Of a stretch of DNA of 64,000 bases, positions 3,230-55,068 are shown one piece after another. The stretch comes from Nesterenkonia ebinurensis (GTDB lineage: Bacteria > Actinomycetota > Actinomycetes > Actinomycetales > Micrococcaceae): assembly GCF_008711175.1 (NCBI RefSeq), contig NZ_VWNF01000021.1:62001-126000 (forward strand). The letters run 5' to 3'. The position numbers and the translations under genes are program-made. Below the pieces are notes generated by a model. It was given only the letters and a program-made list of their open reading frames with translations, was not told the DNA's origin and did no database searches. Position 1 is the first letter of the stretch, and every line of letters begins with the position of its first letter.

Positions 3230-4432
3230 GTGACCCAACAGCCCACTGTCGAGAGTACGGCCCAGATCACGGTGCGCAGCATCAGCTCCGCGGGGCATGC
3301 TGCGTTCCTCGCGGAGCATTCCACCAGCTCCTTCCTGCAGAACCCGAGGTGGCCGGCAGTGAAGATCGACTGGCGCGGTGAGTCTGTGGGAATCTTCTCC
3401 GGCACTGAGCTCATCGGTGCCGCCCTGGTGCTCTACCGCAGGCTCCCGCTGCCCAGGGCGATCCCCTACTTGGGGCGCCGTTGCCTGGTCTATATCGCCG
3501 AGGGCCCGGTGGTGGACTTGACCACCTATCCGGCGGATCAGGTGCTGCCCCCGCTGGTGAACTACCTGAAGTCCCAGGGCGCCTTCCTCATCCGGATGGG
3601 CCTGCCCGGGCAGGTACGCCGCTGGGAGGCCAGCACGGTTCGCAAAGCACTGGCCGCCGGGGAGCACAGCGGCCTGGCAGCCCTTGAGCCTGCCCAGGAG
3701 GATCACGACGCCGCCGGCCTGCATTCCCAGCTGCAGCAGTTGGGCTGGCAGCCTCCCACGGCCGAGGCGGACTTCGACGCCGGACAACCCCAGTTCACCA
3801 CCCGCATCCCCTTGGAGTCGGCCGATCCGCAGGCTGATCCCGAGGAGGACCTGGAGCGGCGGGTGGAGGCCGCCCTGTCCCGGATGGACTCCACCTCCCG
3901 GCGGCAGACCCGTAAGTCCACCCGCTCAGAGCTGAGCTTCAGCACCACAGGGGCTGAGCAGCTCGACGCCTGGCAGGTCCTCTATGAGGAGACCGCGCAG
4001 CGGGATGAGTTCCTGCTGCGGCCTCAGGAGTATTTCCAGCGCATGTTCGCCGCCCTAGAGGGCCAGCCGGACAGCGAATGCACACTGCATCTGGCGCATT
4101 GGAATGACACCCTGCTGGCAGCAGCCATTTACATCCGGCAGGGCAAAGCAGCCTGGTACGCCTATGGGGCCTCCAGCTCCCAGGAGCGCAAACGCTATGC
4201 CCCGCGCGGACTCCAGCTGCAGCAGCTGCGCCAGGCCCTGCGGTCTGACTGCACCTGGTACGACTTGGGTGGAATCAGCCCTTCCCTGGACCCGGAGCAT
4301 CCGCTGGCCGGGCTGACCCGGTTCAAGACCACGATGGGGGCTGATCCGGTGCAGACCCACGGGGAGTGGGACCTGCCGCTGAACCGGCCGTTGTCAGCAG
4401 CGTTCAAGGCCTATATGACCCGTCGCTGGTAG
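3230..4432 (+). CDS. FemAB/FemX-type peptidoglycan interpeptide-bridge transferase
   Basis: A 400-residue FemAB-family aminoacyl transferase, which adds amino acids from aminoacyl-tRNA to lipid II for the cross-bridge. Supporting features are the early FLQNPRWPAVK, the double GNAT-like fold with an intervening charged helical stretch (SRMDSTSRRQTRKSTR), AAWYAYGASS and the ending GLTRFKTTMGADPV, which is a strong family signature (FK..fG). Start is GTG 3230. It converges on and overlaps the nucleoside hydrolase by 22 bp at the 3' end. The substrate amino acid cannot be predicted. Confidence 0.85.
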   Translation: MTQQPTVESTAQITVRSISSAGHAAFLAEHSTSSFLQNPRWPAVKIDWRGESVGIFSGTELIGAALVLYRRLPLPRAIPYLGRRCLVYIAEGPVVDLTTYPADQVLPPLVNYLKSQGAFLIRMGLPGQVRRWEASTVRKALAAGEHSGLAALEPAQEDHDAAGLHSQLQQLGWQPPTAEADFDAGQPQFTTRIPLESADPQADPEEDLERRVEAALSRMDSTSRRQTRKSTRSELSFSTTGAEQLDAWQVLYEETAQRDEFLLRPQEYFQRMFAALEGQPDSECTLHLAHWNDTLLAAAIYIRQGKAAWYAYGASSSQERKRYAPRGLQLQQLRQALRSDCTWYDLGGISPSLDPEHPLAGLTRFKTTMGADPVQTHGEWDLPLNRPLSAAFKAYMTRRW

Positions 4433-5508
4433 GCGCTAACTGGCCCGGCAGTCAGCGTCTGCTCCAGATGGTCCAGGAAGCTGTCGGCGTCCAGGCGGCG
4501 GATCAGCTCCACGTTCGGCTCCCGGTCCCAGCGGCCCAGCCAGTCGGCCACCGTCTCCCCGCGGGTGAGCGTGCCGGACAGCTCCACGTCAACCACTACA
4601 GTGCTAGTCCCGGCGGCGGGCACATGTCCCGCCTCCCGGTCGGCAAAGCCTTGCCGGCCTCCGCGCCCAAAGCGTGGCTGATCTGTCCAGGGGATACCGG
4701 CTTCAGGGTGCCGGGCCCAGCCGATTGCGGCGGCCACTACGTAAGGGTCGTGGATCTGGGCCAGATAGCCGTGGCCGTCGGACTCGTGGAACTCGAAGTA
4801 GAAACGCAGCGCTTCAGCAATCTGCTCCAGCCAGGCTCTCCACTGCGGGTCAGCAGCACTGGTCAGGATCCGCTCCAGCCGCTGCGGGGTCATCACCACT
4901 GCCTCAGTGGCCTCAATGGGGCCGATCGCTGGCAGCTGCAGCGCAGCCCCGAACCCCTGGTAGACCCGGGCCGTGGACTCCGGGTCGAAGTCGGTGTTCC
5001 ACTCGGTGGTCGGTTTGGTGTTGCCCCGGTAGTTGAAGGCCCCACCCATGATGAACAGCCGCCGCAGCAGTTCAGGCAGCTGCGGCTCCACCTGCAGTGC
5101 CAGCGCCAGGTTGGTGCAGGGCCCGGTGACCACGCCGATCAGCTCCCCGGGATGAGCACGCGCGGCCTCGACCCACGCTTGGGCAGCCGGGACGGTGGAC
5201 GGCGTCGTTGTTGGTCCTGGCAGGACCGCATGGCCAGTCCCCAAAGAACCGTGGGTGTCATCGGCGTAGACCGGTGTGCTGCCCTGCTCTGCGGCCCGCA
5301 GCGGCAGCTCGGCTCCAGCGTGCACGGGGACATCACCCCGTCCGGCCAGTTCCAGCCAGGCCAGCGCGTTACGGACCACCTGCCGAGTCGGTACGTTGCC
5401 CCCGGAGGCGGCCACTCCGGTAATCTCCACATCAGGTTGACACACCAGGTAGCCCAGAGCCACAGCGTCGTCGATTCCTGGGTCACAGTCCAGAAAAAGC
5501 GGGATCAC
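4411..5508 (-). CDS. Nucleoside hydrolase (IunH family) carrying a repeat-derived peptide
   Basis: N-ribosyl hydrolase that splits nucleosides into base and ribose in the cytosol. The calcium/ribose-binding motif LDCDPGIDDAVAL is at residues 5-17; VVTGPCTNLALAL, the FIMGGAF strand, NTDFDPES and the active-site IHDPYVVAAA histidine are all present. Length is 365 rather than the usual 310-330. The excess lies at about residues 277-303, where palindromic repeat copy A (4601-4674) is translated in frame as ...DREAGHVPAAGTST between GIPWTDQ and the conserved VVVDVELSGTLTRGETVADW. The GTG start overlaps the TetR stop (GTGA), so it is the last gene of the MFS-tetR operon. Confidence 0.88.
   Translation of the reverse strand: MIPLFLDCDPGIDDAVALGYLVCQPDVEITGVAASGGNVPTRQVVRNALAWLELAGRGDVPVHAGAELPLRAAEQGSTPVYADDTHGSLGTGHAVLPGPTTTPSTVPAAQAWVEAARAHPGELIGVVTGPCTNLALALQVEPQLPELLRRLFIMGGAFNYRGNTKPTTEWNTDFDPESTARVYQGFGAALQLPAIGPIEATEAVVMTPQRLERILTSAADPQWRAWLEQIAEALRFYFEFHESDGHGYLAQIHDPYVVAAAIGWARHPEAGIPWTDQPRFGRGGRQGFADREAGHVPAAGTSTVVVDVELSGTLTRGETVADWLGRWDREPNVELIRRLDADSFLDHLEQTLTAGPVSAYQRRVI
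4601..4674. repeat. Dispersed palindromic repeat, copy A (in frame inside nucleoside hydrolase)
   Basis: Begins GTGCTAGTCCCGGCGGCG and contains the inverted repeat GGTCGGCAA/TTGCCGGCC at 4638-4659. It shares the same order of blocks with copies at 8277 and 37151: an 18-bp leader, a C-rich spacer, the palindrome, then CGC(A/G)CC(T/C)(A)AAAG. On the minus strand it reads AAGTST at its end, in the same frame as copy B. Confidence 0.8.
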
Positions 5509-7885: not shown

Positions 7886-9076
7886 TCAGGCAGAAGATGA
7901 AACAACGGTCGGGTGAATCTGCTCATGCAGGTCCTCCAGCGCCAGGGTGATCCGGGTGCGCCAGCGCCAATCTGCCTTGGCATCCACCCGGGAGGGCCCG
8001 CCGTTGATCACCGCCACCGGCTTGGCTGCCCGCACCATCTTCAGTGCGATCGAGTAGCCGCTCATCACTGCCATGGAGGAGCCCACCACCAGCAGGGACG
8101 ACGCCGCTTCAGCCAGTTCTGCCACCGCTGCCTTCCGCTCTGCCGGCACGTTCTCGCCGAAGTAGACGACGTCGGGCTTGAGGGTATCGGCTCCGCACAC
8201 CAAGCAGGTGACCAGAGTGAAGCGCTGCACCCAGGAGTCATCCAAAGTGACATCGCCGTCCGGGTTGACATTCTCAGTGCTGGTCCCGGCGGCGTGCGCC
8301 TGCCCCGCTCGCCTCTCGGCCGGCAAGGCGTTGCCGGCCTTCGCACCTAAAGACGCCACCGCAGCGGCCTCTGCGTAGCCGGGGTTCGCTTCCTCCAGCC
8401 GAGCGTCCAGGCTGCGCCGATGCTCGGTATTCCCGCAGGTCAGGCACACCACCTCGGACAGGTCGCCATGTAGAGCCACCACGGGGTCAGACCCGGCTGC
8501 CCTATGGAGACCATCGACGTTCTGGGTGATGAGTCCACTGAGAATCCCCGCCTGCTGCCAATCAGCCAGAATCTCGTGACCCCGGTTCGGCTCGGCCGCC
8601 TCCAGGTGCCGCCAGCCGACAAAGGAGCGCGCCCAGTAACGGCGGCGGGCCGCGGCGTCGTACTTGAACTCCTGGTAGGTCATCGGCCGGTGCTTGGTCA
8701 GTGATCCTGCCGGACCACGGTAATCAGGGATGCCGGAGTCGGTGGAGATGCCGGCCCCGGTCAGGCACAGCACATTGCCGGCCCGCAGCAGCTGAAGGAT
8801 ACCGGCACACGCAGCCTCGGCATCCTGCGGCGGTGCAGTCTCTTCAACGGTGCGCGCGATCGACCGCAGCGCCGCCTGATGGGCCCGTTCAGCACTCGTC
8901 CCGCCGGCGTCACCCAGGGTCCCTGACGTCTGGGACCCGTGCGGATCTTCGATCCGTGCGGGCAAGGTCAGGGAGTCGCTGCCGGTCTCGGCCGCATTCC
9001 CGCGACTTTCACGCCCTGAAGTCGGCACATTACTACGCTCGTGCCTCACCGCGCTGCCTGAGCCAGTGGAGAGCAC
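7886..9076 (-). CDS. cobB: Sirtuin NAD-dependent protein deacylase with repeat-derived insertions
   Basis: NAD-dependent lysine deacylase. Visible motifs are GAGISTDSGIPDYRG, TQNVDGLHRAAG (catalytic His region), HGDLSEVVC and the four zinc cysteines (CLTCG and CLVCG), then VVGSSMAVMSGY. Length is 396, far above the usual 240-300. Two regions explain this. First, about 75 residues precede the catalytic core and are encoded by hairpin-rich DNA (repeat D). Second, about 45 residues lie between the two Cys pairs, most encoded by repeat copy B (...LPAERRAGQAHAAGTST). Both stay in frame. GTG 9076 is the longest start; an internal start could remove part of the extension. The gene follows DUF3073 by 11 bp. 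The zinc module insertion could alter stability. Confidence 0.87.
   Translation of the reverse strand: MLSTGSGSAVRHERSNVPTSGRESRGNAAETGSDSLTLPARIEDPHGSQTSGTLGDAGGTSAERAHQAALRSIARTVEETAPPQDAEAACAGILQLLRAGNVLCLTGAGISTDSGIPDYRGPAGSLTKHRPMTYQEFKYDAAARRRYWARSFVGWRHLEAAEPNRGHEILADWQQAGILSGLITQNVDGLHRAAGSDPVVALHGDLSEVVCLTCGNTEHRRSLDARLEEANPGYAEAAAVASLGAKAGNALPAERRAGQAHAAGTSTENVNPDGDVTLDDSWVQRFTLVTCLVCGADTLKPDVVYFGENVPAERKAAVAELAEAASSLLVVGSSMAVMSGYSIALKMVRAAKPVAVINGGPSRVDAKADWRWRTRITLALEDLHEQIHPTVVSSSA
8277..8357. repeat. Dispersed palindromic repeat, copy B (in frame inside sirtuin)
   Basis: Begins GTGCTGGTCCCGGCGGCG; carries the perfect 9-bp inverted repeat GGCCGGCAA/TTGCCGGCC at 8318-8339 with loop GGCG, followed by TTCGCACCTAAAGACGCC. 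It is the most complete copy in the window and is translated on the minus strand between the two zinc-binding Cys pairs of the sirtuin. Confidence 0.85.
8893..9042. repeat. Decayed palindromic repeat, copy D, split by a hairpin cluster
   Basis: The left end (CACTCGTCCCGCCGGCG) and right end (TCTCGGCCGCATTCCCGCG, then TTTCACGCCCTGAAGTCG) resemble the leader and tail of copy C at 37151. About 70 bp of nested hairpins lie between them: GGGTCCC/GGGACCC at 8917-8938 and GCGGATC-TTC-GATCCG around 8941-8956. The encoded AGGTSA matches AAGTST of other copies in frame. Homology is judged by eye. Confidence 0.5.
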
Positions 9077-17850: not shown

Positions 17851-17899
17851 AGCTGCCCGGCGATTGCCCCTTGCGATACACCTGGCCGGGTTCCCCCGG
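17851..17899. repeat. Left 49-bp direct repeat flanking the catabolic island
   Basis: Identical in 48 of 49 positions to 28006-28054, same orientation. The right copy is the last 49 bp of the polysaccharide deacetylase gene. Read in the deacetylase frame, the left copy encodes the same C-terminus and then continues Cys-Pro-stop (TGA at 17843-17845), so it looks like the original gene end left behind by insertion of 10,155 bp. Sequence between here and 18055 is AT-rich and holds the promoter region of the next operon. Confidence 0.85.
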
Positions 17900-27281: not shown

Positions 27282-28007
27282 ATGGCCACATCAGTCACTC
27301 CAGGAGGACGTCCTCGGCAAAGCGGCATTGTTACCGACGACCCACGGGAAGGCATCATCACCGCGGCAGCCGAGCTTTTCGCCGAGAAGGGCTTCAACGC
27401 CACCCGAATGACCCAGATCGCGGAGGCCTCCGGGCTACGGCAGTCCTCCATCTACTACTGGTTCCGGTCCAAGGACGAGATCCTGCGGGCTATCATGGAC
27501 CAAAACCGGGTCTCTTTGACCGCGGCCAGAGCTCTGGCAGAGCGTCAGGAACCCGCCCCGGTACGGCTCTATATTGTGCTCTACCAGGATGTGGTGCAGA
27601 TGTGCTCCGCTCCGCTGAACTTCTACGACCTGGAAGAAGCAGCCTCCCAGCAGCCCGATGTCTTCAGTGACTTCCACAACGACTACGGTGAACTCTTCGA
27701 GAAACTGCGAATGATCATCGAGGATGGGTTGCGCGAGGGCAGCTTCCGTGCCGGAGACGCTGGGGACTTCGTCCAGGTCGCTCTGAACCTCAACGAGGGA
27801 AGTCAGTACCGGTTCCATTCCCGGATGAGCACCATGGACGATATGCACCGCTATGCGGAGACTGCGGCAGAAATCTCGCTGAGGGCCTTTCTTGCGGACC
27901 CTTTCCAGATGGAGCAGGTTCAGGAGTCCGCCCGGGCCGGGATCGCAGGATTCCGCTCGGTGCTCAGTGCAGAGATGCAGCCTTCCGCCGCAAAGGCCGA
28001 TGCCTAG
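27282..28007 (+). CDS. TetR-family regulator of the island
   Basis: A 241-residue TetR protein. The helix-turn-helix is MTQIAEASGLRQSSIYYWFRSK (about residues 46-67), following EGIITAAAELFAEKGFNATR. It is the last gene of the cluster and reads in the same direction. Its TAG stop (28005-28007) overlaps the TAG stop of the convergent deacetylase (28004-28006 on the other strand), exactly at the start of the right 49-bp repeat. It probably controls the ligase operon and importer, perhaps through the GTTTC/GAAAC sites. Confidence 0.85.
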   Translation: MATSVTPGGRPRQSGIVTDDPREGIITAAAELFAEKGFNATRMTQIAEASGLRQSSIYYWFRSKDEILRAIMDQNRVSLTAARALAERQEPAPVRLYIVLYQDVVQMCSAPLNFYDLEEAASQQPDVFSDFHNDYGELFEKLRMIIEDGLREGSFRAGDAGDFVQVALNLNEGSQYRFHSRMSTMDDMHRYAETAAEISLRAFLADPFQMEQVQESARAGIAGFRSVLSAEMQPSAAKADA

Positions 28008-28933
28008 CTGCCCGGCGATTGCCCCTTGCGATAAACCTGGCCGGGTTCCCCCGGGTGGCCGAGAATCTCACTGACGGTCACCAGGTGATACCCCTCTGCC
28101 AGCAGATCCTGGAGGATCAGTGGCACCGCCTCGGCCGTGGAGCGCTCCAGATCGTGCAGCAGCACAATGTCTCCAGGCGAGACGCCGTCCATCACTCGCT
28201 CACGGGTCTTTGCGGCCGACTTATGCTGCCAATCCCGGGAGTCGGTGTCCCAGATGATCAGCGGCAGCCCTGAAACTTCTCTGACTCGGGAGTCCAGGGT
28301 GCCGTAGGGCGGCCGGGCCATGCCGGGCCGGATTCCGGCGGCCTGCTCAATGGCATCAGCTGTACGGTCCAGCTCCGAGCGCAGCTGACCATCACTGAGA
28401 TCTGTGAAATCGGTATGGCTCCAGCCGTGATTGCCCACCTCATGCCCGGCGTCCGCCACCTCAGCGACGATCTCCGGGTAATTGACCGCCATCTGCCCGG
28501 TCATGAAGAAGCTGGCCCGGGCATCGACCTCTGCTAGGGCTTCAAGCACTTCCCGGGTGTGCGGAACCGGCCCGTCGTCGAATGTCAGTGCCGCACAGGG
28601 CATCTGAGAGCAGTCCACCGGTCCAGAGGGATTGCGGATAAAGATCGGTTCGCTGGGCGGAGATCCGCTGCGGTCGGGCACTCCAGCCTCCTGGTCGTCG
28701 TCGTTGTCTGTCCGCTGGCGCAGCTGCTCGGCCCAAGGATAGGCCGAAATGCTGGTCCGGAGGTATTGGGTACGGTCATTGACCGTTTCCTGCCAGATCT
28801 GAGTGCTGGGCGAGAGGCTCAGCTTCGCGGGTGCCGGGGTATAGGCGGCGGGGGCGCCCAGAAGCACCAGCGTGGCTGCTAGAGCAGAGACGGCTGCGAG
28901 AAAAAACAGGGGAAGGTGCCGCACAGGAGGCAT
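28004..28933 (-). CDS. Exported polysaccharide deacetylase (NodB/CE4)
   Basis: A 309-residue secreted or membrane-anchored CE4 deacetylase acting on peptidoglycan or another N-acetylated polymer. An N-terminal hydrophobic segment (LPLFFLAAVSALAATLVLLG) is followed by a linker and the NodB domain. CE4 motifs are all present: ALTFDDGPVPHT (motif 1), HGWSHTDF (metal His), RPPYGTLD, WDTDSRDW and DIVLLHD. Its last 49 bp are the right copy of the direct repeat; the current stop codon is supplied at the junction with the island, replacing an older end (…SPGS-Cys-Pro-stop) still visible at 17843-17899. Confidence 0.88.
   Translation of the reverse strand: MPPVRHLPLFFLAAVSALAATLVLLGAPAAYTPAPAKLSLSPSTQIWQETVNDRTQYLRTSISAYPWAEQLRQRTDNDDDQEAGVPDRSGSPPSEPIFIRNPSGPVDCSQMPCAALTFDDGPVPHTREVLEALAEVDARASFFMTGQMAVNYPEIVAEVADAGHEVGNHGWSHTDFTDLSDGQLRSELDRTADAIEQAAGIRPGMARPPYGTLDSRVREVSGLPLIIWDTDSRDWQHKSAAKTRERVMDGVSPGDIVLLHDLERSTAEAVPLILQDLLAEGYHLVTVSEILGHPGEPGQVYRKGQSPGS
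28006..28054. repeat. Right 49-bp direct repeat flanking the catabolic island
   Basis: Matches 17851-17899 except A instead of C at 28034. It is the 3' end of the deacetylase gene. The first two bases also belong to the tetR stop codon, placing the island boundary at 28005/28006. Confidence 0.85.
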
Positions 28934-30945: not shown

Positions 30946-32216
30946 GCACACAGGCAAAGCAGAGTACGACGACGCCCACCACTCCCCTGCCACACAGGAC
31001 CTCAGTACCGAAGAACCCGCTGGCGGCCCGCACTGAGACCGGGCTGCAGCTGACTCTGATCAGCCAGGAGCGGAAGCTGATCTCAGCCCCGCTGCTGAGC
31101 GCACCGGCCTTCCAGCGTCCCAGCGCACCGCTGGCCTCCCGCACCCTCTACGCCGCCGCACATGTGATCCCCGACCCGCTGAGCGAGACGGTGCCCGGCG
31201 AACCAGCCCAGCTGGACTGGGAGGCCACCCTTGACTACCGGGCCCAGATCTACTCCTGGGGGCTGGGCGTGGCCGATGCCATGGACACTGCCCAGCGGAA
31301 TATGGGCCTGGACGCTGCAGCCACCCGGGAGCTGATCGCCCGCTCCGCCGAAGTCGCCCGCGAGAAGGGCGCCTCGGTGGCGGTAGGGGTCAACACAGAT
31401 GCCCGCACCGAGGCAGAGCTGTCCTTGCAGGAGCTCACCGCCGCCTACCTGGACCAACTGGAGTTCGCTGAGACCCACCAGGCGGTACCGGTGGTGATGG
31501 CCTCCCGCCATCTGGCCAAGACCGCCAAGGATGCCACCGACTACCAGAACGTCTACGCCCAGGTGCTCAGCCGAGCCCAAACCCCGGTGATCATCCACTG
31601 GCTGGGTGAGGCCTTCGACCCGCAGCTGCGCGGCTATTTCGGCAGCACCGACTGGACTCAGGCCGCGGACACACTGATCGACATTATCTCCGCCCACCCG
31701 GACAGGGTGGCCGGGGTCAAGATGAGCCTGCTCGACGCCGCCGCCGAGCGGTCCGTACGTGCCCGCCTGCCGCAGTCAGCCACCATGTTCACCGGGGATG
31801 ACTTCAATTATGTGGACCTCATCGCCCCAGACGCAGAGGGTCAGTACTCCGACGCCCTGCTGGGCGCTTTCAGCGTGCTGGCCCCCAGTGCCTCCGCCGC
31901 GGTGCAGGCACTGGACACAGGAAACCCGGAGCTCTACCGCGACATCCTGCTGCCCACTCAGATGCTGAGCCGCCAGGTCTTCGCCGCCCCCACCTTCTAC
32001 TACAAGACAGGGGTTGCCTTCCTCTCCTGGCTCAACGGCCACCAGGCCAGTCCCGCCATGGTCGCCGGCCTTCACGCCGCCCGCAGCCTGCCGCATCTGA
32101 GCCGCATCCTGGAGCTGGCTAACAACTGCGGCGCCCTGGAGAGCCCGCAAACTGCCCACACCCGCTGGCACCAGCTGCTGGCCCTGCACGGTATCGGAGG
32201 CGCCTCATGGCACTGA
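30942..32216 (+). CDS. DUF993 dihydrodipicolinate-synthase-like protein
   Basis: A 424-residue DUF993 protein, a TIM-barrel group distantly related to dihydrodipicolinate synthase/aldolases. Recognisable parts are LDWEATLDYRAQIYSWGLGV, AVPVVMASRHLAKTAKDA, TPVIIHWLGEAFDP, VAGVKMSLLDAAAE (a candidate Schiff-base Lys) and FYYKTGVAFLSWLNGHQ. The family is regularly found beside Gfo/Idh/MocA dehydrogenases and sugar isomerases but its reaction is not established; an aldolase-type cleavage is a reasonable guess. ATG 30942 overlaps the previous stop, with AGGAG upstream. Residues 1-35 are a low-complexity Thr/Pro extension. Confidence 0.8.
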   Translation: MSTQAKQSTTTPTTPLPHRTSVPKNPLAARTETGLQLTLISQERKLISAPLLSAPAFQRPSAPLASRTLYAAAHVIPDPLSETVPGEPAQLDWEATLDYRAQIYSWGLGVADAMDTAQRNMGLDAAATRELIARSAEVAREKGASVAVGVNTDARTEAELSLQELTAAYLDQLEFAETHQAVPVVMASRHLAKTAKDATDYQNVYAQVLSRAQTPVIIHWLGEAFDPQLRGYFGSTDWTQAADTLIDIISAHPDRVAGVKMSLLDAAAERSVRARLPQSATMFTGDDFNYVDLIAPDAEGQYSDALLGAFSVLAPSASAAVQALDTGNPELYRDILLPTQMLSRQVFAAPTFYYKTGVAFLSWLNGHQASPAMVAGLHAARSLPHLSRILELANNCGALESPQTAHTRWHQLLALHGIGGASWH

Positions 32217-33217
32217 CCCCCACACAGACAACAACGACGCCCCACCCTCGGCTTTCCCTGAACCAGGCGACCATTAAGTACGCGAACTTGGAGCAGGCAC
32301 TCACCATCATCAAGCAGGCCGGTTACCAGTCGATCGGACTGTGGCGGGAACCGGTCAACGATGTGGGCCTGCAAAAGGCCGCCCAGCTGCTCAAAGATTC
32401 GGGCCTGCGATTCTCCAGCCTGTGCCGCGGCGGCTTCCTCACCGAGACCGATGAAGACGCCTTGGCCGCCTCGCTGGTGGAGAACCGTCGGGCTATCGCC
32501 GAGACCGCGGCGCTGGCCGAGGCCGGAGCTGAGGGCTCCGCCCCGGTGCTGGTGCTGGTAGCCGGGGGGATTCTGCCCGGTTCTACGATCCATGCGGCGC
32601 GTGAGCGGTTCTTCCAGGGGCTGTGCGAGCTGGTACCGGATGCCGCCGCGGCCGGAGTGACCCTGGCCATCGAGCCGCTGCATCCCATGTACGCCTCCGA
32701 CCGGGCGGTGATCTCCACGCTGGAACAGGCACTGGACCTGGCTGAGGAGGCAGAGAGTAAGCATGTGGGCGTCGTCGTGGATTCTTTTCATATTTGGTGG
32801 GACCCTCAGGCACTAGCCCAGATTCGGCGAGCAGGGGCGGCCGGACGAATTGCCAGCTACCAGGTATGCGACTGGCGCACCCCATTGGAGGCTGATGTGC
32901 TACTGTCCCGCCACCAGCCCGGCGATGGGGTGATCGACTTCGCTGCGATGACCCGCGCGGTGGAGAACACCGGATACACCGGGGACGTTGAGGTGGAGCT
33001 GTTCAACCAGACCACCTGGGAGGCCGATCCGGGCCGGACTGCCCACCAGACCGCTGCAGCCTTCCAAAGTGCTGTGGCCCCATATCTGCGTACCCTCAAT
33101 ACTCCCGCCGGCGGGGAAACCCCGCTCAGCTCTCAGCCGGCTGCAGGGACACCGGCCTCCGCGCCTGAAGCCACCACAGCCGACAAAACATCACATTTGG
33201 CTCACGATGTGACATAA
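32207..33217 (+). CDS. Sugar phosphate isomerase/epimerase (xylose-isomerase-like TIM barrel)
   Basis: A 336-residue AP-endonuclease-2/xylose-isomerase-like barrel. It shows LSLNQATIKYANLEQALTII, GVTLAIEPLHPMYASD (metal Glu), GVVVDSFHIWWDP (metal Asp and His) and GYTGDVEVELFN (last metal Glu). It would isomerise or epimerise the product of the dehydrogenase. It overlaps DUF993 by 10 bp. The C-terminal tail (about residues 298-336, Pro/Ala/Thr rich) lies outside the barrel and is largely encoded by decayed repeat copy E, so the natural end may once have been near residue 300. Confidence 0.82.
   Translation: MALTPTQTTTTPHPRLSLNQATIKYANLEQALTIIKQAGYQSIGLWREPVNDVGLQKAAQLLKDSGLRFSSLCRGGFLTETDEDALAASLVENRRAIAETAALAEAGAEGSAPVLVLVAGGILPGSTIHAARERFFQGLCELVPDAAAAGVTLAIEPLHPMYASDRAVISTLEQALDLAEEAESKHVGVVVDSFHIWWDPQALAQIRRAGAAGRIASYQVCDWRTPLEADVLLSRHQPGDGVIDFAAMTRAVENTGYTGDVEVELFNQTTWEADPGRTAHQTAAAFQSAVAPYLRTLNTPAGGETPLSSQPAAGTPASAPEATTADKTSHLAHDVT
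33097..33176. repeat. Decayed palindromic repeat, copy E (3' end of sugar isomerase gene)
   Basis: CCCCGCTC-x-x-CTCTC-x-GCCGGC, then CCGGCCT-x-CGC-x-CCT-x-AAG, in the same order and spacing as copy B (8305-8350). The left part ACTCCCGCCGGCGG resembles the leader. Here the host gene lies on the plus strand, opposite to copies A and B. Judged by eye, roughly three quarters identical. Confidence 0.6.
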
Positions 33218-35301: not shown

Positions 35302-35372
35302 GCGCACAGCGTCCCCCACACCTGATGAATCCACTCAAGCCTTACCACCCCAAGGAAAGGAACACTCTCACC

Positions 35373-37070
35373 ATGAAAAACGCGACACACACGGCCGCAC
35401 CGCTGAACAAGCGACGCCGCCTGTACACCAGTACGGCCATGCTAGCCATCGGCGCACTTGTGCTCAGTGCCTGCGGCGGCGACGACGATGAGGAGGAGGT
35501 CGACACCGAGGAGCTCCTTGAGGAGGTCGGCTCAGGCGCGATGGAGGACTTCGAGGCCGGTGACACCTTCGTGGCCACCGAAGACGTGACCTTCACCCAG
35601 CTCTACCGGGACCACCCAAACTATCCGATCCAGAACGACTGGCGCTTCCTCACCTATCTGGAGGAAGAGCACAACGTCACCGTGGATACCTCCAACGCAC
35701 CGCTCTCGGACTGGGAGGATCGCCGTTCTCTGGTCATCGGTGCCGGTGATATGCCGGACTTCATCCCGATCTTCGACCCTGGTGATGAGACCCAGTTCGT
35801 TGCCGGTGGTTCACTGCTGGCAGTCAGTGACTACCTGGATCTGATGCCCAACCTGACTCAGAAGATCGAGGACTGGGAGCTGCAGGGTGACTTCGACGGC
35901 CTCTACCAGGCCGACGGCAAGTTCTACATCCTGCCCGGCATCCAGGAAGAACCGTTCTATGAGTACGGTATCGCCGTCCGCTGGGACATCTGGGAAGAGC
36001 TCGGCTATGACGAGCCCGAAACTTGGGATGAGTTCGCCGATCAGCTGCGTGGGGTCCAAGAGGCCTACCCAGATATGCACCCCTACTCCGATCGCTGGGA
36101 GTTCAACGCCACCCTCAACCAAGCTGCCGCCAGCTTCGACACCGTGGGCGGCTGGGGCTTCGGCGACGGCATGCAGTACGACGCCGACGCCGATGAGTTC
36201 GTCTACGCCCCCACCACCGACGGTTTCCGCGATATGGTCGGCTACTTCGCCGAGCTGGTGGACGAAGGTCTGCTCGACGGCGAGACACTGACCCAGGATG
36301 ACGATCTGGCCATCCAGAAGTTCGCCTCCGGCCAGTCCGCAGCGATCTTCGCCAACGACCAGGAGATCCTCAACTACCGCGACTCTATCGAGGAAGTCGG
36401 CGAGGAAGACTGGGAGGTGCGCCTACTGTCCATCCCGGCCGGCCCTGCTGGCAACGTGGTCGCCGGAGGGCGCCTCTGGGGCGGCCTGGTGGTCAACTCC
36501 AATGTGGTGGACGAGGACTACTTCGTGGCGCTGATGCAGTTCCTCGATTGGCTCTACTACTCCGATGAGGGCCTGGAATACGCCAAGTGGGGCATTGAGG
36601 GTGAGACCTTCGAGAGGGACGGCGATCAGCGCGTCCTGGATGAGAACATCGATATCAACAACCTCAACCCTGGTGCTGACGAGTCGCTGAACACGGACTA
36701 CGGCTTCCACAACGGTGTCTGGATGCTCGTCCACGGCTCCTCGGTGGATCTGATGAACTCCATGGCACGTGACGAGGTCATCGAGTTCCGCGAGTCCATG
36801 TTCGAGAAGGAAATCCAGCCGGTGGATCCGCCGCGTCCACTCGACGACCTGGAGCTCGAGCGGGCCAGCATTACCCAGAACGCTCTCAACGAGACCACGA
36901 ATACTCGCGTGGCTGAGTTCATCGCCGGAAATCGGTCCATGGACCAATGGGACGAGTTCCTCGCTGAGCTCGAGAACTCGGGCCTGGACGAGTACGTCGA
37001 GCTGCACAATGAGGCGTATCAGCGCGCTCAGGAGGAGCTCGACGGCATCGAGGAGGACATCGAGGACTGA
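35373..37070 (+). CDS. LplA-type oligosaccharide-binding lipoprotein
   Basis: A 565-residue extracellular lipoprotein. The signal peptide ends with the lipobox LVLSACGG, then a long acidic stretch (DDDEEEVDTEELLEE). The mature part shows large family-1 binding-protein features: FLTYLEEEHNVTVD, LVIGAGDMPDFIPIFD, YQADGKFYILPGIQEEPFYEY and WDIWEELGYDEPETWDEFADQL. Size is typical for partners of LplB/LplC. It supplies the substrate of the locus, probably a plant-polysaccharide fragment judging by the GH43 gene. ATG 35373 is used because it starts the signal peptide. A strong hairpin follows the stop. Confidence 0.9.
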   Translation: MKNATHTAAPLNKRRRLYTSTAMLAIGALVLSACGGDDDEEEVDTEELLEEVGSGAMEDFEAGDTFVATEDVTFTQLYRDHPNYPIQNDWRFLTYLEEEHNVTVDTSNAPLSDWEDRRSLVIGAGDMPDFIPIFDPGDETQFVAGGSLLAVSDYLDLMPNLTQKIEDWELQGDFDGLYQADGKFYILPGIQEEPFYEYGIAVRWDIWEELGYDEPETWDEFADQLRGVQEAYPDMHPYSDRWEFNATLNQAAASFDTVGGWGFGDGMQYDADADEFVYAPTTDGFRDMVGYFAELVDEGLLDGETLTQDDDLAIQKFASGQSAAIFANDQEILNYRDSIEEVGEEDWEVRLLSIPAGPAGNVVAGGRLWGGLVVNSNVVDEDYFVALMQFLDWLYYSDEGLEYAKWGIEGETFERDGDQRVLDENIDINNLNPGADESLNTDYGFHNGVWMLVHGSSVDLMNSMARDEVIEFRESMFEKEIQPVDPPRPLDDLELERASITQNALNETTNTRVAEFIAGNRSMDQWDEFLAELENSGLDEYVELHNEAYQRAQEELDGIEEDIED

Positions 37071-37150: not shown

Positions 37151-37250
37151 GTGCTGGTCCCGGCGGCGCGCACAGGTCGCACTCGCCTCTCGGCCGCGTT
37201 GCCGCGGCCATCACGCCTAAAGTCGCTGCATCGCTTCGCTCGCAGCTCAT
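37151..37250. repeat. Dispersed palindromic repeat, copy C (intergenic)
   Basis: Begins GTGCTGGTCCCGGCGGCG, has the perfect 7-bp inverted repeat GGCCGCG/CGCGGCC at 37192-37209, then CATCACGCCTAAAGTCG and a GCATCGCTTCGCTCGCAGC tail. It fills most of the gap between the lipoprotein and DUF624 genes, ending just before the DUF624 Shine-Dalgarno. One minus-strand frame encodes RAAGTSTE, as in copies A and B. Confidence 0.8.
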
Positions 37251-37265
37251 GCTAGGAAAGGACCT

Positions 37266-37934
37266 ATGGATCTGGATCGCGAAGGACCGCTGACCAGGCT
37301 GACGAACTTCGTCTACCGCCTGATCGTCATCGAGGCCGCCTTTGTGCTGGTCACCCTGCCGGCGCTGATCGGCATCTTCTTCCTGGAGCAGCACCCCAGC
37401 AACATCCCGCTCTATGCCGTCTTCACCCTGTTCTTCGGCCCGGCTATCAGCGCAGGCGTCTATGCCTGGCGAGCCGATCAGGACGTGGTGCCCTGGCTGC
37501 GTTACTGGAAGGGCTACATCGAATCCTTCGTGCAGACCATGGTGGTGTGGATCCCAGTGGTCACCCTCTGCACGCTGGTGGCTTTCAATGCCGCATACTC
37601 ACAGGTCTCCACAGTGTTCATCATCGGCGGGTTCATCATCGCTGCCGGTGCCGCGATCTACGGTGTGGCCCTGCTCTGCATCATCGCAAACTTCAGCTTC
37701 CGCACCCGAGACCTGTTCGCCGTGGTGATGTTTGGCACCGCACATGCTCCACTGTCAGCCCTGGGCATCGTCTCGCACACGATTCTGGCCGGGGCCATCG
37801 TATTCTTCTGGGCCGACTGGGTGCTGGTGCTGCTGGCCAGCTTCATGCTGGTGCTGCTGGCCAGGATCGTCCGACCGATGCTCATCCAGATCAACGAGGG
37901 CCTGGTTAAACCCGGCCACGGCCCCCTGCCATGA
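37266..37934 (+). CDS. DUF624 (YesL-like) membrane protein
   Basis: A 222-residue membrane protein with about five hydrophobic segments. DUF624/YesL landmarks are LTRLTNFVYRLIVIEAAFVLVTLPAL with the following GIFF, and a Trp-rich loop VVPWLRYWKGYIESF. The family is constantly found in LplABC-type sugar loci, where its role is unknown. AGGAAAGGA precedes the ATG; the stop overlaps the GH43 start (ATGA). Confidence 0.8.
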   Translation: MDLDREGPLTRLTNFVYRLIVIEAAFVLVTLPALIGIFFLEQHPSNIPLYAVFTLFFGPAISAGVYAWRADQDVVPWLRYWKGYIESFVQTMVVWIPVVTLCTLVAFNAAYSQVSTVFIIGGFIIAAGAAIYGVALLCIIANFSFRTRDLFAVVMFGTAHAPLSALGIVSHTILAGAIVFFWADWVLVLLASFMLVLLARIVRPMLIQINEGLVKPGHGPLP

Positions 37935-39673
37935 GGATCTCCAATCCGCTGCTGCCGGGCTGCTACCCGGACCCCAGCATCTGCCGCGCCGGTAACTGGT
38001 ACTACCTGGTGACCTCCACCTTTGAGATGTGGCCGGGACTGCCGATCTTCCGCAGCCGCGACCTGGCGAACTGGGAACAGATCGGGCATGTGATCGACCG
38101 GCCCGCCCAGATGACTTTCGACGGCGTGGAATCTTCTCGCGGACTGTTCGCGCCCACTATCCGCCACCACAACGGCACCTTCTACCTCGTGTGCACCCGC
38201 GTCGGAGCCCCTGACGCCCCGCACCACGGGAACTTCCTGGTCACCGCGGAGGACCCAGCCGGGGACTGGTCGGAGCCGCGCTGGCTTCGCGACGAGCACG
38301 GCACCCCGGTGGACGGCATCGACCCCTCGATCTTCTTCGCCGATGACGACCGGATCTGGCTCCACGGCACCCGCCCGGCGCCCACCCCGGAATGGGAGGG
38401 GCAGACCGAAGTGTGGCTGCGGGAGTACGACCCGGACCGCGGCTTGGTCGGTGCCGAGCACATCATCTGGACAGGTGCGATGCGCGGCGCGGTGTGGGCC
38501 GAGGGACCACATCTCTTCGAGCGCAGCGGCCGATTCTACCTGCTGGCAGCTGAGGGCGGCACCGAGTTCCACCATGCGGTGTGCATCGCCCGCAGTGAGG
38601 CGGTGACCGGCCCCTATGAGGGCAGCAGGGCCAATCCGGTGCTCACCCACCGGCACCTGGGCCATCCCGGGCACGGGCGCGGACCGGAGGTGGTCGGCGT
38701 GGGGCATGCCGATCTGGTGGAGGCTCCCGACAACTCCTGGTGGGCGGTGCTGCTGGGTATGCGCACCTACGGCGGGTACCACTACAACCTAGGCCGGGAG
38801 ACCTTCCTGGTGCCCGTGGAGTGGCAAGACGGCTGGCCGGTCTTCGCCCCTGACGAGGGTCGAGTGCCTGCCGTGGTCGAGGTTCCCGAAAGTGTCCAGC
38901 TGGGACAGCGGAAGCCCACTGTCCCAGCTGCTTTAGACACGAAAGCCGGTGACACCACAGCCGGTCGAGGCGGACCCCTGATAGCAGGGACCCGCGCGAA
39001 TGCAAAGCATTCAGGTGGGCCACCTCAGGAAGCGGCGGGACATACACTCGCCACCGCCCCCAACACCGTCACCGGCGGTCCGGTGCTCCCTAGTGATCCG
39101 CGTTGGACCTCACTGCGTGGGCCCTGGGACGGCTTCGCTTCAGTGGAGGACGAGAGGTGGATACTTCGGGTTCAGCCAACGACTCTGACCGAACGCACTA
39201 CACCGACTTTCCTGGGGATCCGGCAGCAGCATAGGCGCCTGGACCTCACTGCTGAGTTGAACCTCTCCACCCTGACACCCGGGGAGGAGACTGGTGTCGT
39301 CGTACGTCAGTCCGAGGAGCACCACGCCTACCTCGCGCTGCTGCGCCGGGAGGATGATTGGCTGCTGCGTGCGGTGCTCCACCAGCCTGGGGGCGACACG
39401 GTTCTCGGCGAGCAGCCCTGGTCCGAAGCGGACTGCGTGGTGCTCGGTCTGCAGGCCCGTGAGCAGGACTACACGTTCACGCTGGACGGCGCCGCCGTCG
39501 CCACGGCCGACGGCCGCCAGCTGGACACGGTGACCACCGGTGGATTCCTAGGCCTGTGGCTGGGTGTCTTCGCCACCAGCCACGGCCGCCCCACCAGTTC
39601 CTCCATGGTTCTCCGAGAACTGGTCTATTCGCCAGTGGGTACCGAGGATGTCTTATACCCCCATCGAAGGTGA
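37931..39673 (+). CDS. Glycoside hydrolase family 43 with an unusual linker
   Basis: Five-bladed beta-propeller glycosidase (beta-xylosidase/alpha-arabinofuranosidase group), 580 residues, no signal peptide, so intracellular. Catalytic Asp is in GCYPDPSICRAGNWYYLVTS, a pKa-modulating Asp in DGIDPSIFF and the acid Glu in VWAEGPHLFERSGRFYLL. A C-terminal beta-sandwich begins near residue 380 (SDPRWTSLRGPWDGF). Between the domains is a low-complexity linker (about residues 322-377) encoded by a series of palindromes (38897-39025). It would cleave the imported oligosaccharide. It is the last gene of the operon. Confidence 0.88.
   Translation: MRISNPLLPGCYPDPSICRAGNWYYLVTSTFEMWPGLPIFRSRDLANWEQIGHVIDRPAQMTFDGVESSRGLFAPTIRHHNGTFYLVCTRVGAPDAPHHGNFLVTAEDPAGDWSEPRWLRDEHGTPVDGIDPSIFFADDDRIWLHGTRPAPTPEWEGQTEVWLREYDPDRGLVGAEHIIWTGAMRGAVWAEGPHLFERSGRFYLLAAEGGTEFHHAVCIARSEAVTGPYEGSRANPVLTHRHLGHPGHGRGPEVVGVGHADLVEAPDNSWWAVLLGMRTYGGYHYNLGRETFLVPVEWQDGWPVFAPDEGRVPAVVEVPESVQLGQRKPTVPAALDTKAGDTTAGRGGPLIAGTRANAKHSGGPPQEAAGHTLATAPNTVTGGPVLPSDPRWTSLRGPWDGFASVEDERWILRVQPTTLTERTTPTFLGIRQQHRRLDLTAELNLSTLTPGEETGVVVRQSEEHHAYLALLRREDDWLLRAVLHQPGGDTVLGEQPWSEADCVVLGLQAREQDYTFTLDGAAVATADGRQLDTVTTGGFLGLWLGVFATSHGRPTSSSMVLRELVYSPVGTEDVLYPHRR
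38897..39029. repeat. Cluster of hairpins inside the GH43 linker coding sequence
   Basis: CAGCTGGGACAG pairs with CTGTCCCAGCTG (38897-38930, perfect 12-bp stem). Next come CCCTG-ATAG-CAGGG (38976-38989), GAATGC-AAA-GCATTC (38998-39012) and AGGTGG-G-CCACCT (39013-39025). The part from 38971 resembles the hairpin insert in the sirtuin 5' end (8913-8972). Confidence 0.65.
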
Positions 39674-52650: not shown

Positions 52651-55068
52651 TCAGCTGATGCGGGCAGGGGTGGTGAGGACGCGGTGACCGGTGACCTGAC
52701 GGGTCTCACCCACCAGAGTCACCTCCCCGGCCAGGGGCAGCTCGCCGGCGTTGGGGCCGACCCAGAGGTCGATGGCGCCGGGCTCCACGATCCGGGTGTA
52801 GTCCACCCCGGTGAAGGCGAAGCGATCGGCGTGTACCCAGAAGGTGACCTCCTTGGACTCCCCCGCAGCCAGCTCTACCTTGGCGTAGGAGAGCAGCTGC
52901 TTCACCGGGCGGGCCACCTGGGCGTTGCGGTCGCCGAAGTAGAGCTGCACCACTTCGGCCACCGGGCGCTGGCCGGAATTGGTGACCCTGGCCGAGACGT
53001 TGACCGTGCCGTCCACTGCGATCTCGGCGGACTCCACCAACAGATCGGAGTACTCCACACTGGAGTAGCTCAGCCCATAGCCGAAAGGGTAGAGCGGGGT
53101 GGGGTCCAGGTTGGAGACACCCTCGCTGTTCTGACCCAAGGGTGCGGCGATGTAGCCTACCGGCTGGCCGCCGGGGTGGGCGGGCACGCCGATGGGCAGC
53201 CTCCCGGTGGGCTCCACAGCACCGGTGAGCAGGTCCGCCAGCGCGGGACCGCCCTCCTCACCGGGGAAGAATCCCTGCACGATGGCAGCGCACTCATCAG
53301 CCACTGCACCCAGGGCGTAGGGTCTACCAGAGATCACCACCAACACGGTGGGGGTCCCGGTGGCCAACACGGCCTCGACCAGCTCCTGCTGGGCGCCGGG
53401 CAGCTTGAGGTCTTCGACGTCGCAGCCCTCGCCGGAGGTGCCGGCGCCGAACATGCCGGCCAGATCGCCTACCGTGACCACGGCCAGGTCAGCCTCAGCC
53501 GCAGCCCGGGCAGCTGCGACGATGCCAGCGTCGTTTCGCTCACGCTCCTCAATCGCCTCGGATGACTCGGAGCCAGCTCCGGTCTTCGCTTGGCTCAATC
53601 GGGCGTCGTCATAGTCCACGATAGGGCAACCGAACTCATAGACGACCTGGCTGAAGCGCTCACCCAAGGCGTCCAAGATGGAGGGCATAGGCACACCGAT
53701 GCCCTTATGTGGGAAGGTGTCAGCCGGGTACTTGGCCAGCACGTGGTTGGGGAAGGAGTAGCAGCCCATCATGGTGCGCGGCTCATCGGCGGAGGGGCCT
53801 ACCACTGCGACCTTGCCGGTACTTGCCGGATCGAGGGGGAGGATACCGTCATTTTTCAGCAGCACCAGAGACTCATGAGCCACCCGACGAGCCAGCTCGC
53901 GGTTGGCCTCGGAATCCAGGTCCACCGACTCGTCGATCTTTGGCTCCCAGCCGCTGCCGTCTTCGGCGATGTCGAGCAGGCCGAGCTCCGCCTTCTGCTT
54001 CAGCACCCGGCGCACCGAACGGTCCAGCACGGACTCGTCCAGCTTGCCCTCGCGGACCTGCTGGGCCAGGGTGCGGTAGCCACCGGTGTGCGGCAGCTCG
54101 ATGTCCAATCCTGCGCTGATCGCCAGGCGGGCGGCCTCAGCCTGGTCTTCGGCAATTCGGTGCATCTTCTCCAGGAAGGCCACCGACCAGTAATCAGCCA
54201 CCACGGTGCCCTCGAAGCCCCATTCCTCACGGAGGACTTCGGTGAGCAACCACTTGGAGGCCGCGGGTGCTTCGCCGTCGATATCGGCGTAGGAGTTCAT
54301 CACCGAGCCAACTTTGCCCTCGCGGACTGCCAGCTCGAAGGGGTAGAGAATCAGGTCGATCAGCTCACGCCTGCCCATATGCACCGGGGCGTGGTTTCGG
54401 GCGGCACGAGAGGCGGCGTAGCCGGCGAAGTGTTTCAGGGTGGCGATGATCCCGGCTGACTGCAGACCCTTCACATAGGCGGTGGCCAGGGTGCCGATCA
54501 CATAGGGGTCCTCACCGATGGTTTCCTCCACCCGGCCCCAGCGGGCATCGCGGACCACATCCAGCACCGGGGAGAGACCCTGCTGGACTCCGGTGGCGGC
54601 CATATCGGTGCCGATGGCTGCGGCCATCTCCTCGATCAGCTCGGGGTTGAACGTAGCCCCCCACGCCAGGGAGGTCGGGTAGACGGTGGCCTTATAGGCG
54701 GTGTAGCCGGTCAGGCACTCCTCATGGGCGATGGCCGGGATGCCGAACCGGTTTGCAGCGATCACCCCGGCCTGGCGCTCCCGCAGGTCGCGGGCTCCTT
54801 CCTGCACCTCCAGCGGGATGGTTCCGTAAGTGCGGGTCAAGTGACCCTCGCCATGGGCGATCTCCTGAGCGAAGGGCAGTTTGCCGGAGGACATCGCATC
54901 CTCCATGGGAGCGACCTCGCCCTGGGTGTCCGGGTCCTCGCGCATCTCCCAGTGGGAGCCGAGCTGGGCGACTTTCTCCTCCAGAGTCAGCTCAGCCAGA
55001 AGTGCCTCTACCCGCTCTTCGGTGGGTAGGGCGGCGTCGTTCCATTTTCCAGTGATGCGCTCGGTCAC
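52651..55068 (-). CDS. GH3 beta-glycosidase (beta-glucosidase/beta-xylosidase type)
   Basis: An 805-residue intracellular GH3 enzyme. The N-terminal barrel starts RVEALLAELTLEEKVAQLGS; the substrate Lys-His pair is in IIATLKHFAGYAASRAARNH and the nucleophile Asp in FEGTVVADYWSVAFL. The second domain has KVAVVGPSADEPRTMMGCYS and VVTVGDLAGMFGAGTSGEGCD, and a fibronectin III-like C-terminal domain begins near VNVSARVTNSGQRPVAEVV. There is no signal peptide. It lies downstream of a CUT1 importer on the same strand (126-bp gap) and would hydrolyse the imported beta-linked oligosaccharide. GTG start with AGGAGA. Confidence 0.92.
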   Translation of the reverse strand: MTERITGKWNDAALPTEERVEALLAELTLEEKVAQLGSHWEMREDPDTQGEVAPMEDAMSSGKLPFAQEIAHGEGHLTRTYGTIPLEVQEGARDLRERQAGVIAANRFGIPAIAHEECLTGYTAYKATVYPTSLAWGATFNPELIEEMAAAIGTDMAATGVQQGLSPVLDVVRDARWGRVEETIGEDPYVIGTLATAYVKGLQSAGIIATLKHFAGYAASRAARNHAPVHMGRRELIDLILYPFELAVREGKVGSVMNSYADIDGEAPAASKWLLTEVLREEWGFEGTVVADYWSVAFLEKMHRIAEDQAEAARLAISAGLDIELPHTGGYRTLAQQVREGKLDESVLDRSVRRVLKQKAELGLLDIAEDGSGWEPKIDESVDLDSEANRELARRVAHESLVLLKNDGILPLDPASTGKVAVVGPSADEPRTMMGCYSFPNHVLAKYPADTFPHKGIGVPMPSILDALGERFSQVVYEFGCPIVDYDDARLSQAKTGAGSESSEAIEERERNDAGIVAAARAAAEADLAVVTVGDLAGMFGAGTSGEGCDVEDLKLPGAQQELVEAVLATGTPTVLVVISGRPYALGAVADECAAIVQGFFPGEEGGPALADLLTGAVEPTGRLPIGVPAHPGGQPVGYIAAPLGQNSEGVSNLDPTPLYPFGYGLSYSSVEYSDLLVESAEIAVDGTVNVSARVTNSGQRPVAEVVQLYFGDRNAQVARPVKQLLSYAKVELAAGESKEVTFWVHADRFAFTGVDYTRIVEPGAIDLWVGPNAGELPLAGEVTLVGETRQVTGHRVLTTPARIS

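Follow-up and report, generated by a model that had tools for sequence, protein, structure and literature searches.

Short palindromic elements, some read in frame within conserved genes, form a repeat family in one clade of Nesterenkonia

The window, a 64,000-nucleotide stretch of Nesterenkonia ebinurensis DNA, contains on its minus strand a sirtuin ORF of the SIR2 family (7886..9076; Pfam PF02146, 2.7e-37), whose 5' limit is that of the ORF, with a putative start codon, and an ORF for an inosine-uridine-type nucleoside hydrolase (4411..5508; Pfam PF01156, 4.5e-77). Copies of a repeat element are found in both. The copy in the sirtuin gene, of a short form, is at 8277..8352 on the plus strand, opposite to the gene, and the copy in the hydrolase gene is at 4601..4672, also on the plus strand (83.3 and 63.5 bits, respectively, with the covariance model R1 described below). 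An earlier note had proposed that the two genes share one element, and this is confirmed by the cores, which are 79% identical. It had placed both copies correctly but extended them a few bases too far at the ends, and the tail of the hydrolase copy is CGCGCCCAAAG, not CGCACCTAAAG. In both genes the insert is read from the minus strand and its peptide closes with AAGTST. The common reading frame claimed for them holds only in the AAGTST half; the other half is read in different frames (SLGAKAG... versus FGRGGRQG...), since the core lengths differ by 4 bp.

Both inserts lie between conserved blocks, as had been suggested. The sirtuin insert is flanked by the cysteine pairs CLTC and CLVC and falls in the gap between two aligned blocks of PDB 5oj7, and the hydrolase insert falls between two aligned blocks of PDB 3g5i. 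The sirtuin was said to be longer than its relatives; indeed, its insert, a net gain of 75 bp or 25 codons over empty orthologues (codons were compared at five empty sites), is missing from 29 of the 29 other same-genus orthologues, none of which carries the residues. The hydrolase has matches in 20 other genomes, two of them distant, and among the other 18 the element is present at this site in one, G027 (L199:2126-2195). Since the site is thus occupied in another species, the hydrolase insertion may be older than the sirtuin insertion.

The leader of the element, GTGCTGGTCCCGGCGGCG, matches exactly at 8277-8294 and 37151-37168 and with a single mismatch at 4601-4618. These are its three sites in the window at three or fewer mismatches, compared with 0.17 expected, and three matches were reached in none of 100 shuffles. 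A repeat finder also grouped 4601, 8277 and 37151 as one family. With R1, five matches were observed in the window at E<0.01, starting at 4601, 8277, 33096, 37151 and 38931. The copy at 33096..33170 (plus strand, 55.7 bits), read on its plus strand, falls close to the C-terminal end of an ORF (32207-33217; Pfam PF01261) for a xylose-isomerase-like TIM barrel. The copy at 37151..37222 (plus strand, 84.7 bits) is intergenic, between ORFs 35325-37070 and 37266-37934, and is followed at 37223..37249 on the same strand by what reads as the third-hairpin 3' module that marks the long form of the element (TCGCTGC...GCAGCTCA). Finally, a degenerate copy at 38931..38997 (minus strand, 29.1 bits), composite with a sequence of a second repeat type, termed B-like, is in frame in a GH43 ORF (37931-39673; Pfam GH43). 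The window also contains a 49-bp direct repeat, 98% identical and 10 kb apart (17851-17899 and 28006-28054).

Two further palindromic families accompany the element. Family B-like sequences have the form CCCTGACGT...ACGTCAGGG and family C sequences the form ATCGCCTCGGAAGAC...GGCTCAATCGGG; both occur beside or inside hairpin 1 of several element copies. In the window, a B-like palindrome at 8916..8976 (plus strand) lies towards the 5' end of the sirtuin ORF, where it may precede the true start codon of the gene. It contains GGTCCCTGACGTC, exact at 8918 and with one mismatch at 8925 on the other strand, a count in the window that is not above chance, and it has at least one match outside the window (L012). 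B-like sequence was found inside or beside element copies in six loci (L007, L028, L169, L174, L187, L194). A family C repeat at 53528..53614 (plus strand) is in an open frame within an ORF of glycoside hydrolase family 3 (52651-55068, minus strand; Pfam GH3). Elsewhere in this genome, blast places nine matches to it in seven loci; at L010, L171 and L184 the repeat adjoins an element copy or lies within one.

The element is not confined to the window. Thus neither of the outcomes that the earlier note had listed against its own reading was seen, the sirtuin residues being missing from the same-genus orthologues compared. A DNA search of the window's genome (G000) gave 50 matches at E<=10, and model R1, built after aligning 20 copies, gave 125 at E<=1 and 101 at E<0.01. 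The analyses below concern 100 of these 101 copies, C1:464756-464872 being left out. The unit is about 79 bp long and folds into two hairpins, so that the palindromic structure described earlier is present, not as a single palindrome but as two. Its core is C(A/T)GYGCTGGTCCCGGCGGCGGG-loop-CCCGCTCGCCTCTCGGCCGGC-loop-GCCGGCCTTCRCRCCTRAAG. In 69 copies scoring above 40 bits, conservation begins two bases before the model core and is low past AAAG on the right. A loose pattern for a third hairpin, ending near CTCA, matched 33 of the 100 copies, some by chance.

The hairpins are kept as nucleic-acid structure, as compensatory changes on both sides of the stems far exceed those in shuffled alignments. 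In alignment A1, from whose own sequences the structure was derived, 98.4% of cells pair, and two-sided changes number 13, where shuffles average 2.0. Alignment A2, consisting of 37 distinct rows from relatives and public Nesterenkonia contigs fitted to the model, has 41 two-sided pair-keeping changes against 5.3. In each case none of 500 shuffles reached the observed number, and slid controls gave up to 4 such changes in A1 and 11 in A2. The nearest dispersed neighbours of 57 copies are 75-93% identical (median 85%); no recent burst is thus visible, and amplification in this genome was not very recent. Across the same 57 copies, 219 of 342 reading frames are open, which looks unremarkable, as about 60% are expected to be open at such GC by a hand estimate.

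No Rfam match was observed at E<=0.1 in six element loci, and none of the copies in 80 of the 81 loci scanned overlaps an Rfam RNA gene. Two copies (L003 at 1501 and L004 at 1583) follow a tRNA gene with no base in between. Tandem arrangements also occur. In L147 (G000 C15:18603-18787) the element and a 37-bp hairpin-capable flank are duplicated together as a 111-bp tandem unit, and a relative carries a tandem array of copies, of which four have a 134-bp period and identical scores. The latter was seen at L068 760-1570 and L078 1501-2311, probably one array in two overlapping loci.

By a codon-usage scan, 20 of the 100 copies are flanked by coding sequence on a single open frame. After removal of the window copy at 37151 (an antisense ORF over intergenic sequence) and of L181 (weak flanks), and addition of a C-terminal copy (L157), 19 of the 100 copies are placed in frame, in 17 genes. 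The host families are SIR2, IU_nuc_hydro, HAD (SerB-like), TruB, Lhr helicase (two copies in one ORF), amine-oxidase-like (HemG-like), TsaE, GrpE, TPP enzyme (MenD-like), FtsK (two copies), TIM-barrel isomerase, GH43, HGSNAT, Condensation, cytochrome b561-like and proton antiporter, together with one protein (L177) that has no Pfam hit and that we labelled AlkA. This label, like SerB, HemG, MenD, LipA, Era, CnoX, XerC and SufT, is what we take the protein to be from its sequence and domains. Several of the genic copies are degenerate (29-45 bits). The two copies in the Lhr helicase ORF, on contig C9 of G000 (L161 and L190), are in opposite orientations.

A stricter scan, in which openness was not selected, gave four copies in which one open frame joins two strongly coding flanks. 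The other 26 rows (25 copies) with such flanks lack a frame of this kind, each having a stop codon within the stretch from 46 nt upstream to 163 nt downstream of the start of the element. These stops fit gene boundaries, as a gene end lies within 90 nt of 45 of the 81 non-genic copies; broken genes are possible among them.

The association with gene ends can be followed to the stop codon itself. In ten of the 100 copies the 5' boundary carries a TGA; in eight of these the upstream coding frame runs exactly into that TGA, and in none of the ten does an upstream coding frame arrive in another frame. Eight gene ends were looked up in three relatives, with 22 of 23 rows readable. Where relatives lack the element, the LipA-, Era-, XerC-, SufT- and permease-like proteins have the same last residues, so that the boundary TGA is most simply the host gene's own stop. 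The 14 clearly empty ends read TGAG in eight cases, TAG in two, TGAA in two, TGAT in one and TGAC in one. In some relatives the element recurs at the host stop codon, namely that of the LipA- and Era-like genes in G027 and of the CnoX-like gene in G001; in G015 the CnoX-like gene is followed by a degenerate copy. An element remnant follows the XerC-like gene in G015, and unscored element-like sequence follows the gene of the L154 protein in both G001 and G015.

Occupied and empty sites were compared using pieces of 8 of 14 genic sites and 8 of 9 gene ends, each in 3 of 29 relatives. At the SerB-like, TruB and HemG-like sites and the first Lhr site, the three relatives compared lack the insert of the window's genome, with two peculiarities in G027, an insert of its own in Lhr and an unrelated-looking extension in TruB. 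In G015, model R1 detects no copy at these four sites or at the sirtuin site, and compared with this genome the sirtuin and TruB each gain a net 25 residues, the HemG-like and SerB-like proteins 23 each. The host protein with no Pfam hit is also shorter in the three relatives, and the MenD-like loop varies in all genomes compared. Near the end of TsaE element matches were found in G027 and G015 as well, and this copy may be shared. At the first Lhr site the copy of G027 is in the orientation opposite to that of G000 and is therefore probably an independent insertion; at the second Lhr site element sequence is present in G027 too, at contig ends.

Among 58 genomes, R1 matches (E<=0.01, with stricter filters than in the window's genome) were observed in 11, all of them among the 30 of the same genus, and in none of the 28 outside it. 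An exact-pattern scan of public contigs, from which records of the window's own genome may be left out, gave 15 stretches, all from Nesterenkonia, and viral contigs gave no element match. In a sirtuin tree of the 30 genomes a split with 98/96 support separates 13 genomes, 11 of them carriers, from 17 that include no carrier. Of the 13, the element was not detected in G006 (79% complete) and G017 (62% complete). This distribution fits one gain followed by vertical descent and amplification; on the same tree the carrier pattern requires at least three changes.

Taken together, these data very probably describe a family of short non-autonomous mobile elements that has spread within one Nesterenkonia clade into permissive sites, including sites where it is read in frame. 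Copies would survive where they do little harm, presumably through selection: in intergenic sequence, at stop codons that end an upstream gene, and in frame at permissive positions of proteins. A GC-rich unit that is usually open in about four of six frames would be readable through when the copy has a suitable length, and such a copy, if translated, adds 23-25 residues relative to the empty sites, as seen in four genes. Insertion may have been aided by a short 5' match and by the hairpin fold, with an enzyme that is possibly already lost. A weak hint of such aid comes from some 5' junctions that share bases with the empty site, such as TGAG in 8 of 14 clearly empty ends and CAGCGCTG in truB.

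The mode of movement can be approached through the junctions. No target duplication of constant length was observed at the sirtuin, HemG-like, TruB and SerB-like sites or in a scan of the flanks of 85 isolated copies. No duplication is evident at the sirtuin and SerB-like junctions, the TruB junction has at most an imperfect 6-bp repeat (4 of 6), and at the HemG-like junctions CGGGATCG is repeated; of its 8 bp, five resemble the element. Strong flanking direct repeats were found for 7 of the 85 isolated copies, compared with 0.1 expected. Six of these (all but L146, whose repeat is 17 bp away) and the tandem L147, seven copies in all, have flanking repeats of 22-64 bp, the left one ending 0-2 bp before the element, and such repeats do not fit a simple insertion that duplicates the target alone. 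The idea that these copies entered hairpin-shaped targets was not supported (combined p 0.13 over seven targets).

One could suppose that the element is an ordinary MITE, derived from a DDE transposon with its autonomous parent elsewhere in the pan-genome. Some copies begin with TGAG(C/T)TG and the 3' module ends near CTCA, similar to short terminal inverted repeats, and the 8-bp repeat at the HemG-like junctions would agree with this. However, a target duplication of constant length is absent, and the genome does not contain the 5' and 3' halves at a transposon-like distance, except for one 581-bp pair on contig C26, the 5' half of which belongs to a complete copy. This comparison used 45 five-prime halves with at most one mismatch, from the best 100 of 118 matches. 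Of these, 22 have no 3' half within 70 bp downstream; for them it lies at 111-172 bp in five cases, at 212 bp in one and at 581 bp in one (the pair on C26), and in the rest there is none or it is more than 9 kb away. Thus no autonomous partner was seen in this genome among the 45 halves checked, and we consider an ordinary MITE rather unlikely.

Movement by a RAYT or IS200-like Y1 transposase, as for REP-type elements, would explain the hairpins, the short conserved 5' tag, the tandem copies and the proximity of non-genic copies to gene ends, all of which are REP-like according to PMC12306157. On the other hand, the transposase domain PF01797 was found in none of the 11 carriers; its sole occurrence is in G006, where no copy was detected (the control matched in 5 of 14 genomes). 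The copies that sit in genes, 19 of 100, also differ from REPs, which the same paper describes as seldom found there. This transposase was therefore rejected as the mover, and a REP-type origin is very unlikely.

A still less credible possibility is the retro-insertion of a structured RNA with target duplications of variable length. It is suggested by the seven copies with 22-64 bp direct repeats adjoining the element, whereas most of the 85 isolated copies have none, and the reverse transcriptase domain PF00078 is found in 4 of the 11 carriers and 2 of the 19 non-carriers and is absent from the window's genome; as a mover this enzyme too was rejected. Equally hard to credit is removal of the element from the message, or its skipping by the ribosome, in the manner of an intron or a translational bypass, which would leave the proteins normal. 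Conserved hairpins within genes of conserved families could be read in this way, but the genic copies keep the frame open, which would be needless if they were removed, although this set had been selected for openness. Lastly, look-alike alanine- and proline-rich linkers that never moved, to which the low complexity of the peptides and the variable length of some host loops among orthologues might point, can be dismissed for the family as a whole, given a family defined at the nucleotide level, in both orientations and several frames, with covarying hairpins and many intergenic copies.

This family of probable mobile elements has counterparts elsewhere. To our knowledge, the mobiliser of the Rickettsia palindromic elements (RPE) and of the Wolbachia repeats has not been identified. 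Among Actinobacteria, the mycobacterial interspersed repetitive units are small repeats, said to overlap the start or stop codons of their neighbours, that occur mainly as tandem arrays between genes; their likeness to the present element, as small actinobacterial repeats, is by description only. Our search of the literature on Nesterenkonia repeats and palindromes and on actinobacterial coding repeats, with few subscription journals covered, gave no such family among the matches listed.

According to two papers (PMC2229807, PMC10969869), RPEs are short palindromes of several families, found between genes as well as in frame within conserved genes unrelated to one another, and a guanylate kinase modified by one is reported to be translated and active; for Wolbachia, the title of a reference speaks of protein-coding palindromic repeats. 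The Nesterenkonia family behaves like RPEs in these respects, and the analogy drawn in the earlier note is supported by the in-frame sites in unrelated conserved genes and by the several co-existing families; it is a likeness of kind. Unlike RPEs, the element belongs to another phylum, is GC-rich, measures about 79 bp rather than 105-146 bp, and has two separate hairpins, docking at stop codons and nested families. RPEs are also described in tmRNA and M1 RNA (PMC2229807), whereas the present element lies in no RNA gene (80 of 81 loci). The ERIC and RU elements of enterobacteria and the Correia or NEMIS elements of Neisseria are likewise small and non-autonomous and can fuse in frame, but most of these MITEs have terminal inverted repeats, TA ends and target duplications, as outlined in the same paper (PMC2229807), whereas no constant duplication accompanies the present element.

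A bolder reading is that Nesterenkonia has a protein-coding palindrome system of its own, independent of that in Rickettsia, with several nesting hairpin families, an undescribed insertion machinery that tends to dock at host stop codons, and selfish peptides in many working proteins. It is possible but doubtful, and slightly more so because only 8 of the 14 clearly empty stop codons read TGAG.

Palindromic elements read in frame are best known from Rickettsia and Wolbachia, and here they are seen in a GC-rich actinobacterium. The empty sites in relatives, together with one site hit in both orientations in two species, make the mover testable. A second question that becomes testable is how often selfish DNA adds segments to working proteins. 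The thirty genomes of the genus allow carriers to be compared species by species and, further, at the level of strains.
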